This document shows, in pieces, positions 21,092-23,602 of a stretch of DNA of 64,000 nucleotides. Numbering within the stretch: the first letter of the stretch is position 1; every line of letters starts with the position of its first letter. Under the pieces are notes generated by a model that was not told where the DNA came from, made no database searches, and saw only the letters and a list, made by a program, of their open reading frames with translations. A program made the position numbers and the translations under genes. The DNA lies in the NCBI GenBank assembly GCA_022826485.1, contig JAJDUU010000035.1, forward strand, positions 1 through 64,000. The letters are read 5' to 3'. The stretch is from Chloroflexota bacterium (GTDB lineage Bacteria > Chloroflexota > UBA11872).

Positions 21092-21709
21092 ATGACCGCA
21101 TCCACCAACGGCGCCGAAGCGCCCCAGCCCACCGGCGCGCAGCTTGCCGAGCGGCACGCGCGCATCGAGGCCGCCATGCGCGAAATCCTCATCGCCGTGG
21201 GCGAGGACCCCGACCGCGACGGTCTGCTCGACACGCCGGCACGGGTCGCGCGGATGTACGACGAGCTGCTCAACGGTCATCTGACCGACCCGGACGAGCA
21301 TCTCGAGGTCACCTTCGAGCACGGCCACGACGAGATGGTGGTGGTCCGGGACATTCACTTCCACTCGCTCTGCGAGCACCACCTGCTCCCCTTCTTCGGC
21401 ACCGTTGCCGTGGGGTATCTGCCCCACGACCGCATCGTCGGGCTCAGCAAGCTGGCGCGCGTGGTGGAGCACCTGTCCCGGCGGCTCCAGGTGCAGGAGC
21501 GGCTGGCCAGCCAGATCGCCGACGCCATCGAGCGCGTGCTCGACACCGGCGGCGTCGCGGTGATGATCGAGGCCGAGCACCTCTGCATGACCATGCGCGG
21601 CGTCCGCAAGCCCGGCAGCCGCATGGTGACCACCGTCACCCGCGGCGCCTTCCGCGACAACCCCGCCACCCGCGCCGAGTTCCTCCACGCCATCGGCCAG
21701 CCCACCTAG
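21092..21709 (+). CDS. folE: GTP cyclohydrolase I
   Basis: A 205-residue enzyme that converts GTP to 7,8-dihydroneopterin triphosphate, first step of folate and related pterin synthesis. Zinc ligands are in FHSLCEHHLLPF (Cys, His) and EAEHLCMTMRGVRKPGS (Cys). VGLSKLARVVEHLSRRLQVQERLASQ is the conserved substrate-binding helix region. ATG at 21092 follows AGGACGAATGGC; the frame upstream to 20873 is Arg-rich and unlike the family. A TATACT at 20976-20981 may be its -10. No other folate genes are near. Confidence 0.95.
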   Translation: MTASTNGAEAPQPTGAQLAERHARIEAAMREILIAVGEDPDRDGLLDTPARVARMYDELLNGHLTDPDEHLEVTFEHGHDEMVVVRDIHFHSLCEHHLLPFFGTVAVGYLPHDRIVGLSKLARVVEHLSRRLQVQERLASQIADAIERVLDTGGVAVMIEAEHLCMTMRGVRKPGSRMVTTVTRGAFRDNPATRAEFLHAIGQPT

Positions 21710-21767
21710 CTCCAGCAACACCCGGCGTACAAGCCGAAGACCGGATCAGGCCCCTTCTCACCTGATA

Positions 21768-22065
21768 GGACCCTTGCGTAACCCCTCCGTCATTCCGGCG
21801 AAGGCCGGAATCCAGTCCGGTCGACTCTGAACATTGGCGGCGGATGCCCCAGGTACACCGGGTACGGCCACGCTTTGCAGAGATCTCCCTGATGGAGACC
21901 CTTGCGTAACCCCTCCGTCATTCCCACGAAGGGAGACCCTTGCGCACCCCCTCCGTCATTCCGGCGAAGAGCCTGCCCCGTACTCGATACGGGGCCGGAA
22001 TCCAGTCCGGTCGACCCTGGCGGAACTTGGGGATGCTTGGCCGACGGGCGGTTCCCGAACCGCCC
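21768..22065. repeat. Repeat island after folE
   Basis: Wrapper left ends GGACCCTTGCG (about 21771), GGAGACCCTTGCG (about 21895 and 21932) and a right end TTTGCAGAGATCTCC (about 21873) surround three TCATTCC palindromes, one with the inner CCCCGTACTCGATACGGGG hairpin. A perfect GGGCGGTTC/GAACCGCCC palindrome closes it at 22046-22065. Confidence 0.7.
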
Positions 22066-22430
22066 TTGCGCCCCGCCCGATACTTCATATACGATGTACA
22101 CGCAGCGTTAACAGCGCTGCACGGGTCGTCCCTGGTCCGCGGATCAGCGGTTGATCGACGGGCCAGCACCGCCAAAGGTGGCGTGATGCGAAACATTCGC
22201 GTCGAGATGGGACGCTGGCAAATTGACAGGTTGCGCCCCGCGGCGTCACGGCCAATTCGTCGCGGGGCAGCAGGTCGCGCCGGGCCCGGATGACGCCTAG
22301 CGACACTTGAGACCCCGAACCAGCGAGTGCGCTCGCGTGGGGCTCGAGCCACCGGACCCGCCAGACGACCGGGCGCGATCACGGACACGGTTCGCGCTGC
22401 GGGCTCGCATCGAACGATGCGAGCCCGCGT
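22066..22430 (+). ncRNA. Candidate structured RNA with its own promoter and terminal hairpin
   Basis: This part of the folE-dehydrogenase gap is free of the usual repeats. TTGCGC (22066-22071), 18 bp, TACGAT (22090-22095) could start transcription near 22102. Downstream are an 11-bp stem with one G-U (22235-22245 with 22258-22268), a CCCC-GCGAG hairpin (22313-22342), and a perfect 14-bp stem with AA loop (22399-22428). No RNase P, tmRNA or SRP signature word was found. A 35-codon frame from 22186 is possible but unsupported. Confidence 0.3.
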
Positions 22431-22484
22431 CTATGTCACCCGCCCGCCGCCGGGCAATCTCTCGTCGGACCCCTTCCCCCTGGA

Positions 22485-22600
22485 AGGAGACCCTTGCGAA
22501 ACCCCTCCGTCATTCCGGCGAGGAGCCTGCCCCCCTCCGTCATTCCGGCGGAGGCCGGAATCCAGTCCGGTCGAACCCGGAGGCGCGCTAGATGCTTGGC
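22485..22600. repeat. Palindromic repeat island
   Basis: GGAGACCCTTGCG (about 22487) leads into two TCATTCCGGCG palindromes ending at about 22565, then the CCGGTCGAACCC...GATGCTTGGCGTCGGGCG tail seen at other copies. Confidence 0.65.
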
Positions 22601-22624
22601 GTCGGGCGTTGTTCGGCGCCGTCC

Positions 22625-23602
22625 CTACCCCGCCAACCGCTGATAGACCTCCGGGTTCACCGTCCGCTCACACCGGCCCGTGCCCATGAACTCCTGCAAG
22701 TTGCGCACCGCGCGGTCGCCCATGCGGAACATCGACTCGTGGCTATGCGAGCCGAAGTGCGGCGTCAGAATCGTGCGCGGCGTGTGGAAGAACGGATGGT
22801 CCTCCGGCGGCGGCTCGACGGCGAACACGTCCGACCCAAGGCCGCCCAGGCGCCCGTCGTGCAGCGCCTCCACCACCGCCGCCTCGTCCACCAGGCGCCC
22901 GCGCGAGCTGTTGATCAGGAACGCGCCGGGCTTCATCAGGGCCAGCTCTTCGCGCCCGATGATCTCCATGGTCTCCTCGGTCACCGGCGTGTGCAGCGTC
23001 ACGAAGTCGGATTGGCGCAGCAACTCGGGCAGCGACACGAAGGCCCCGTCGATCCCCGCCGCCTCCAGCCGCGCCGGGTCGGGATTGGCCGTGTGCGCCA
23101 GGACCCGCATGCCGAAGCCGTGCTGGCAGATCGTCGCCACGCGGCGTCCGATGTCCCCGAACCCCACGATGCCCACCGTCTTGCCCGCCAGGTCGTTGCC
23201 GAGCAGCACGATGCGCTTGGCGAAACCCTCGGTGCGCACCGAGGCGTCGGCGTCGAAGATGCGGCGGGCGAGCGTCCACATCATGCCCACCGAGTATTCG
23301 GCCACCGTCAGCGACATTTCGCCCGGACCGTTGAGCACCGCCACGCCCGCGTCCGTCGCGGCGTCCAGGTCGATACTGTCCACCCCGGTGCCCACGCGCG
23401 AGATGCAGCGCAGCGTGCCGGCGTTGGCTTCCAGCAGCTCGCGCGTCCACGGCTCGGTGCCCGCGATCACACCCACGGCGCCGACCGCCGCCTCCGCCAA
23501 CTCCGCGTCGTCGGGGAACGGCGCCTGGCGCACCTCATAGTCACGCTCGAGATCGGCTTGCGGACCCGGGGGCATGGGAAACGTTTGCAGAATCAGCGTC
23601 AT
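22625..23602 (-). CDS. D-isomer-specific 2-hydroxyacid dehydrogenase (SerA-like)
   Basis: A 325-residue NAD-dependent dehydrogenase. Catalytic Arg in INSSRGRLVDEAA, Glu in the DVFAVEPPPEDHP stretch and His in TPHFGSHSHES; NAD loop GKTVGIVGFGDIGRRVA. The length lacks the ACT domain of full SerA, so it may be a short phosphoglycerate dehydrogenase or act on hydroxypyruvate/glyoxylate. SHSHES instead of the common GAxTxE near the His is a mild departure. It begins 21 bp after mreB on the same strand and may be the last gene of the atp-murA-mreB transcript. Confidence 0.88.
   Translation of the reverse strand: MTLILQTFPMPPGPQADLERDYEVRQAPFPDDAELAEAAVGAVGVIAGTEPWTRELLEANAGTLRCISRVGTGVDSIDLDAATDAGVAVLNGPGEMSLTVAEYSVGMMWTLARRIFDADASVRTEGFAKRIVLLGNDLAGKTVGIVGFGDIGRRVATICQHGFGMRVLAHTANPDPARLEAAGIDGAFVSLPELLRQSDFVTLHTPVTEETMEIIGREELALMKPGAFLINSSRGRLVDEAAVVEALHDGRLGGLGSDVFAVEPPPEDHPFFHTPRTILTPHFGSHSHESMFRMGDRAVRNLQEFMGTGRCERTVNPEVYQRLAG

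Follow-up and report, generated by a model that had tools for sequence, protein, structure and literature searches.

A short conserved reading frame and the RNA hairpin behind it mark a family of small units in the Chloroflexota

Introduction

What is the function of a strongly folded stretch of 365 nucleotides that has a promoter-like start and a terminal hairpin and seemed to hold no gene? The stretch occupies positions 22066-22430 of the window (the whole 64,000 nucleotides of Chloroflexota DNA analysed here), between folE (plus strand, ending at 21709) and a serA-like gene (minus strand, 22625-23602), both named by eye from their translations. An earlier note on this DNA took it for a possible new non-coding RNA. 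Sequence comparison across the phylum shows that it belongs to a family of small Chloroflexota units that unite coding and structure in a near-fixed geometry, without a constant neighbour. Below, f1 denotes the window's family, g1 its genus, g2 the sister genus and G000 its genome.

Results

A structured unit downstream of folE

The minimum free energy of 22066-22430 is -189 kcal/mol, compared with -162 ± 5.6 kcal/mol for shuffled sequences (z -4.8), and 0 of 100 dinucleotide shuffles folded as well. The minus strand folds more weakly (z -2.8, with 1 of 100 shuffles as good). When the stretch was set against 48 random 365-nt stretches of the window with 20 shuffles each, it reached a z of -6.7 and the lowest control a z of -2.0. 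Its description as strongly structured is therefore borne out. By BLASTN (E ≤ 0.001) the stretch is single-copy in its own genome; the other matches involved either query positions 2-36, where the edge of a repeat precedes 22066, or the palindrome of the terminal hairpin. On either flank of the unit stands a short repeat around CCGTCATTCCGGCGA (window positions 21787, 21953, 22507 and 22537, besides 19 other places), giving 23 window matches with at most one mismatch against 0.03 expected, 22 of them on the plus strand.

The features of the window copy are collected in Table 1. The promoter-like TTGCGC-18-TACGAT reported before, of sigma-70-like form, is present, although a strict promoter consensus scan did not call it; it or a close form is found in g1, and g2 copies carry TTGAC-17-TAGGAT or a close form at the same place. 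The proposed 11-bp stem was recovered as 22232-22245 paired with 22258-22272, reaching 14 bp including one bulge in a later fold, and the perfect 14-bp terminal stem had 14 bp in one fold and 13 bp in another. A second hairpin also formed where it had been placed. The stretch looks like a separate transcription unit that would give a structured RNA, its status as an RNA resting on comparison.

Table 1 Features of the window copy, with the basis or comparison for each.
Feature	Position	Strand	Basis or comparison
-35-like hexamer TTGCGC	22066-22071	+	TTGAC in the sister genus; TTGACA in many distant copies
-10-like hexamer TACGAT, spacer 18	22090-22095	+	TATACGAT or TATAGGAT-like sequence there in most f1 copies
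5' hairpin of the transcript, 8 bp	22102-22120	+	Fold; kept in six g1 copies
Shine-Dalgarno-like AAAGGTGG inside a small predicted hairpin	22174-22181	+	Sequence and fold
Short ORF, 35 aa in the window copy	22186-22293	+	Reading frame shared with relatives
Constant motif GRWQID (family consensus GVWQVD)	22210-22227	+	Comparison of 66 copies
AGG (rare Arg codon) and codon TTG	22228-22233	+	Copy comparison; second codon a stop in many distant copies
Hairpin H1	22232-22272	+	Folds; covariation in 19 copies
3' domain, long imperfect helix with inner hairpin	22273-22371	+	Compensatory changes in g1 and g2
Hairpin of type GCGCGAT..ATCGCGC before the terminal hairpin	22372-22398	+	g1 and g2 copies; other sequences in G006
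Terminal hairpin, probable 3' end, no T run in the window copy	22399-22428	+	Folds

A short reading frame with an exchanging stop codon

The claim that the stretch holds no convincing gene did not survive comparison, since a short ORF is the most conserved part of the unit and its motif, or a variant of it, is present in all 66 copies compared. The peptide core [ND]IRV..GRWQ[VI]DR.RPAA is common to all 18 f1 copies, and right after it 17 of the 18 have a stop codon (TAA in 10, TGA in 5, TAG in 2). Only in the window does this site (22246-22248) read TCA, and the frame runs 15 codons further, to 22293. The usual end is thus hidden in the one copy that the earlier note had before it, which would explain why the ORF was missed. 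The TCA itself is compatible with either a real change or an assembly error. In the other g1 copies the ORF ends at this site after 20 codons, with the peptide MRNIRVEMGRWQIDRLRPAA (single exchanges apart) ending in GRWQIDRLRPAA. In g2, a Shine-Dalgarno sequence is followed by 35 or 37 codons that end in NIRVLIGRWQVDRSRPAA and a stop in 11 of 12 copies, the copy in G006 differing at two places. The f1 peptides carry six residues after the D of the motif, the window copy more; the codon after D-R is TCG, TTG or CCG, with the stop five codons further on.

In the ORF frame, synonymous and non-synonymous differences are about equal, at 156 to 144 over the core and stop and 288 to 250 over the whole g2 ORF, from which G012 was left out. 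No other forward frame does better than 1 to 5. One of the reverse frames yields 149 to 143 and 233 to 257, as expected of an antisense frame that shares its third positions with the ORF. G012 has an in-frame deletion of 6 nt in the ORF, which fits coding. A chance ORF was rejected on this codon pattern and on the exchange of TAA, TGA and TAG at the stop site.

Conservation and neighbours in the window's family

BLASTN against 61 genomes recovered the region in 6/6 g1 genomes and a shorter core in 11 of 13 g2 genomes; the only other matching genome, G033, aligns to the repeat edge alone. A peptide HMM raised the count to 18 of 19 family genomes. In a contig scan with a narrow f1 pattern, the 12 named records with f1 copies were Chloroflexota metagenome-assembled genomes, whose sample names we take to stand for sponges. 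One g1 genome (G004, L065 1500-1560) has a second GRW.IDRS.P.A-like stretch, GRWVIDRSKPKA, behind two tRNA-like stretches recognised by eye, which may be chance.

Measured from the core through the terminal hairpin, the unit has 237 nt in five g1 copies (the sixth lies at a contig end) and 231-235 nt in 12 g2 copies, a steady length although the sequence has largely changed between g1 and g2. At the place of the 5' hairpin, g2 has a hairpin of other sequence. Alignment of the relatives, proposed earlier as a check, did yield compensatory changes: RNAalifold reported 10 doubly changed pairs in 11 g2 copies and five in six g1 copies. The g2 3' part holds 17 doubly changed cells against 5.9 in shuffles, a value reached by 0 of 500 (11 copies, G006 being left out of the g2 RNA alignment).

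In each of the six g1 genomes folE is the unit's neighbour. The g2 genomes have a GntR/FCD regulator gene (by Pfam on one copy; for example L074 5136-5867) separating the two; in G006, other genes lie upstream. A palindrome seen by eye at the likely transcription start in the sister genus is a possible operator. The serA-like gene is adjacent on the opposite strand in 14 of 18 f1 copies; it is about 30 kb away in G002 and G005 and on another contig in G001 and G003. folE and the serA-like gene are direct convergent neighbours, with no unit between them, in G016 and in two f2 genomes (G020, G021). G016 stands at the base of g2 in the tree, and so its lack of the unit is likely a loss, though this genome is 76% complete.

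Copies across the phylum

Two places in a distant genome, G052, were picked out both by a covariance model of the core (R1) and by the peptide HMM; there MKRSTNARVLEGRWQIDR and MKRSTNIRVLKGCWQVDM each end at a stop codon with a hairpin immediately after. Three more HMM matches and one more model match look alike, that in G263 having no stop. A DNA pattern, GGNNNNTGGCARRTNGACAGRY, was found in 32 of 400 phylum genomes and its reversed control in 1 of 400. Among the 14 non-f1 genomes with this pattern, 11 hold members of the family and three (G358, G214, G061) chance matches that apparently lie inside genes. A second model (R2) matched 21 of 29 genomes, or 21 of 27 genera, of one class at E ≤ 0.01, and 24 of its 25 places have the motif, the exception being G211a. 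The weak class matches of a first peptide search (A1), with E up to 0.1, were read in frame (L059, L063 and L065 also as sequence); these resemble chance matches, and several fall inside other genes.

The third model (R3), trained on 19 copies, was run at E ≤ 0.001 on 400 Chloroflexota genomes of 224 genera. It gave 63 places in 55 genomes and 37 genera, all carrying a short ORF with the motif or a variant; 18 are f1 copies and 45 lie elsewhere, of which 18 were training sequences. The stretch is thus unique within its genome, as had been claimed, but not in nature. For the comparisons below, the table of non-f1 copies comprises 48, with G211a dropped and G211b, G211c and G169 kept though outside the R3 list at E 0.001; together with the f1 copies this makes 66. 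Six genomes have two copies each and G308 has three. A mobile element was rejected, since most genomes have one copy, none more than three, and neighbours are kept among related genomes. Viral contigs gave 0 matches with one strict pattern. In one copy (G134, L197 140-187) the motif is tandemly duplicated inside the ORF, AFLGAWQVDQAFLGVWQVD preceding the stop, and the G036 copy has a tRNA gene (Rfam) upstream in the same orientation (L176 1767-1849).

The peptide end and its hairpin

Across the 66 copies, the motif has Q in 66, D in 65 (E once), W in 59 (L in 4, F in 3) and G in 62; its fifth place is V in 57 and I in 9, and its second V in 39 and R in 23. The exchanges of W for L or F use unrelated codons and third positions are free, which, with the constancy of Q and D and the exchange of V for I, points to selection on the peptide. 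The N-terminus varies in length and sequence. ORFs have 12-37 codons across the family and the non-f1 peptides 12-34 residues, with as few as five before the motif (G190). A Shine-Dalgarno sequence with at least 5 of 6 matches precedes 44 of the 48 non-f1 ORFs, and the start codon was chosen by it. Comparison at the level of sequence shows that the short ORF, with its constant C-terminal motif, codes for a peptide.

The stop codon follows zero or one residue after D in 44 of the 48 non-f1 copies (none in eight, one in 36; 6, 7, 20 and 22 residues in one each). In 18 of these 36 the single residue is Arg (AGG 13, AGA 4, CGA 1); the rest have K, S, C, W, V, G, T, F or M. Over all copies, D is followed by AGG or AGA in 36 of 66, and in 18 of the 48 outside f1, a count to be read with the DNA pattern in mind, which required AGR after D and found some of the copies. 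Of all Arg codons in seven genes of the window, 0.5% are AGG.

H1, a GC hairpin, begins 2-7 nt beyond D in 48/48 non-f1 copies, and 6-7 nt beyond it in 40, in a search for stems that covered 0 to 11 nt after D and with search models that contain H1. In the window copy the core stem, GCCCC.., starts at 22235, 7 nt after the D codon. The stop codon shifts in position while the motif and H1 keep close. Over 19 copies H1 covaries, with 13 doubly changed cells compared with 3.2 in shuffles (0 of 500). The RNA of one class continues with ACCUCAGGCUA..CCC pairing with GGG..GUCCUGAU further on, and H1 plus this long-range helix hold 16 doubly changed cells compared with 5.8 (nine copies). A further RNAalifold helix joins the Val-Asp codons (GUCG) to the CGAC that immediately precedes the long-range element, and it shows no double changes; a ribosome on the motif would be expected to open these pairs. 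The 3' domain differs in sequence between genera, and by eye no common pairing seed or conserved single-stranded seed was found between them.

Transcription signals are enriched at the units: a promoter score of at least 9 of 12 was found in 25 of 48 copies and in 15 of 753 control spots, and terminator-like hairpins follow 29 of the 48 distant copies against 0 of 209 control stretches. When folding was modelled with a ribosome footprint blocked, the terminator was still predicted in 30/30 copies (18 of the 48, having no clear terminator, were left out) and the freed H1 strand had no common partner in these folds. Formation with and without the footprint speaks against a simple antiterminator switch.

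Downstream genes

By a strict pick, the next downstream ORF of the 48 copies lies on the same strand in 16, on the opposite strand in 18 and is unclear in 14. A cruder pick gave 25, 22 and 1, having taken in some ORFs that overlap the unit, and for G099 and G190 it differs from another reading. Most copies thus seem to stand alone. The window copy is followed by the serA-like gene on the opposite strand. For 30 of 47 downstream ORFs scanned by Pfam, the kinds were unrelated except for pyrE (enoyl-CoA hydratase, DUF362, cation efflux, LytR, integrase, RpiA and others). Five copies from three families (G284, G296, G308b, G349, G355; loci L154, L241, L245, L246, L249) are immediately followed by a pyrE-like gene. 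Its top match in NCBIfam is orotate phosphoribosyltransferase, at scores under the curated cut-offs; Pfam sees only one of the five. As called, the pyrE-like ORF starts 4-37 nt after the terminator-like hairpin, too close for a pyrE promoter of its own.

Searches against known families

The covariance-model search that had been suggested for the stretch was run with Rfam 15 and found no family at gathering score in the window, in keeping with the earlier remark that no RNase P, tmRNA, SRP or T-box words could be recognised. By E-value, 21700-22640 gave one chance match only (E 3.9). In 24 loci of relatives, the Rfam matches overlapping units stayed below gathering (for example ctRNA_pGA1 33 of 45 bits, BjrC68 23.6 of 39, His_leader 29.2 of 49), and one tRNA near a copy scored above it. 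ARAGORN called no tRNA or tmRNA gene in the window. tmRNA (RF00023) was rejected for the stretch, having no Rfam match or ARAGORN call in the window and a place elsewhere in G000 and three f1 relatives (4/4). RNase P RNA (RF00010) was rejected too, with no window match and copies at other places in three of the four genomes; G000 is the fourth, and its missing RNase P RNA is probably an assembly gap. 6S RNA (RF00013) had no match in the window, nor any at E ≤ 0.001 in four f1 genomes. Pfam-A and NCBIfam gave no match for four f1 peptides (one Pfam line, at E 0.17, was below cut-off) or for eight non-f1 peptides of 20-28 aa, such short peptides being weak queries. Searches of open-licence PMC papers brought up no account of such a unit. 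Of the proposed new non-coding RNA, the separate structured unit with compensatory changes and no Rfam match stands, but the conserved short ORF speaks against its being non-coding.

Discussion

We consider it nearly an even chance that the unit is a ribosome-sensing RNA, in which the nascent GVWQVD would pause the ribosome against H1 and so set the fate of the 3' domain. The ORF would be translated from its strong Shine-Dalgarno sequence, and the motif, once in the exit tunnel, would slow or stop the ribosome at the ORF end. In many copies the rare AGG codon and the stop codon may aid the pause; in E. coli, a rare AGG before the stop promotes stalling and tmRNA tagging. The paused ribosome would hold H1 open in the mRNA entry channel, and its presence would decide the fold, lifetime or partner pairing of the 3' domain. 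The RNA might then report the state of translation or a ligand in trans, with possible action in cis at a minority of loci, as the leader of the pyrE-like gene. We infer the pause from the constant C-terminus and free N-terminus, from the position of H1 at a distance that fits the entry channel and from the common rare AGG before the stop. Counted against this reading are the footprint folds, which show no terminator switch, the divergence of the 3' domain between genera, and the varying residue after D together with the more distant stop in 22 of 66 copies (18 f1 and four others), which blur the predicted stall site.

The strong conservation at the peptide level, the good Shine-Dalgarno and promoter-like sites and the lack of a steady downstream gene would suit a plain gene for a tiny peptide that acts after release, as a signal, a ligand or a ribosome-binding peptide, with a structured 3' UTR that merely protects the mRNA. 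Such a peptide would not need H1 at its near-constant distance from D in every non-f1 copy, however. It can have as few as five residues before the motif and by eye shows no export signal, and in f1 it continues for six residues beyond D, or more in the window copy; on balance this explanation is rather unlikely. The peptide motif also bears on a trans-acting small RNA that has a translated ORF yet would act chiefly through the RNA itself, as do dual-function RNAs such as SgrS and VcdRP. A short unit that combines an ORF and structure with promoter-like sites and terminator-like hairpins would suit it, yet conservation is highest in the motif and lowest in the 3' domain, and no conserved single-stranded seed is visible between genera; we think it quite improbable. 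Least credible of all is the earlier reading of a non-coding structured RNA with a chance ORF. It accounts for the very stable fold and the compensatory changes and is largely refuted by the codon pattern, the stop exchange and the motif in 66 copies.

The genomic setting bears on a cis-acting leader-peptide attenuator of the downstream gene, of the classical type. The five copies placed directly before a pyrE-like gene, with only 4-37 nt between it and the terminator-like hairpin, are what it would predict. Elsewhere, the next confident gene lies on the opposite strand in 18 and on the same strand in 16 of the 48 copies, the serA-like neighbour of f1 is on the opposite strand in 14 of 18, and the scanned same-strand genes are of unrelated functions. 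With the terminator also predicted to form in 30/30 folds whether or not the footprint is there, we regard this explanation as improbable.

We put forward a broader proposal only tentatively and think it somewhat unlikely: the phylum would hold a widespread class of stand-alone RNAs gated by their own nascent peptide, in which the arrested ribosome is the sensor, perhaps also the carrier, and the 3' domain is a trans output with no cis target. Attenuation would then have been freed from the operon and re-attached to pyrE in a few lineages. A conserved peptide end of six residues, tied to a hairpin in 37 of the 224 genera sampled from a little-studied phylum and unmatched by Rfam, NCBIfam and Pfam in the searches run, points to an undescribed form of translation sensing or regulation. 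The mechanism proposed for the WQVD unit makes the sharp prediction of a pause at GVWQVD. The locus also illustrates how short genes can be missed when the sole copy at hand has lost its stop codon.

Several known systems resemble the unit in part. In tmRNA a reading frame ends in AA and a stop codon inside a helix, and the f1 frame ends likewise; unlike it, the unit coexists with a real tmRNA elsewhere in 4/4 f1 genomes tested. SgrS has a terminator and a stand-alone position. peTrpL belongs to the trp attenuator, whereas the copies here precede no common gene except pyrE in five. The attenuator RNA rnTrpL and its leader peptide peTrpL are presented in PMC7298713 as acting in trans, and a leader peptide with a role in trans is the likeness we propose. 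As with VcdRP or SgrS, the unit would be a small RNA with a short ORF; on the account in PMC8672173, it differs in the near-fixed distance between peptide end and hairpin and in its large covarying 3' domain. TnaC, the Trp-sensing arrest peptide of E. coli, needs Trp and Asp as PMC8429421 presents it, and the unit likewise has a short leader ORF with Trp and Asp. Judged by the same account, the TnaC spacing (W12, D16 and Pro24 before the stop) is not found here, where W-x-V-D needs no final Pro, no tna-like operon lies behind and H1 comes directly after the motif. A constant C-terminus with a free N-terminus is the look of arrest peptides according to PMC10987492, whose main text contains the terms 'Chloroflexi' and 'Chloroflexota' 0 times, and the family shows both traits. 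With the RAPP-type and Sec/YidC-related arrest peptides treated there it also shares a patchy distribution, but GVWQVD is not RAPP-like and there is no sec or yidC gene among the scanned neighbours. The cyanobacterial Downstream-peptide RNA motif similarly joins a structured RNA to a short conserved ORF outside known protein families; its structure, in the description of PMC2864571, lies 5' of the ORF, and here, with no Rfam match, the structure follows the ORF end. Not assigned to a known family, the unit would work like a leader-peptide RNA or a dual-function RNA.
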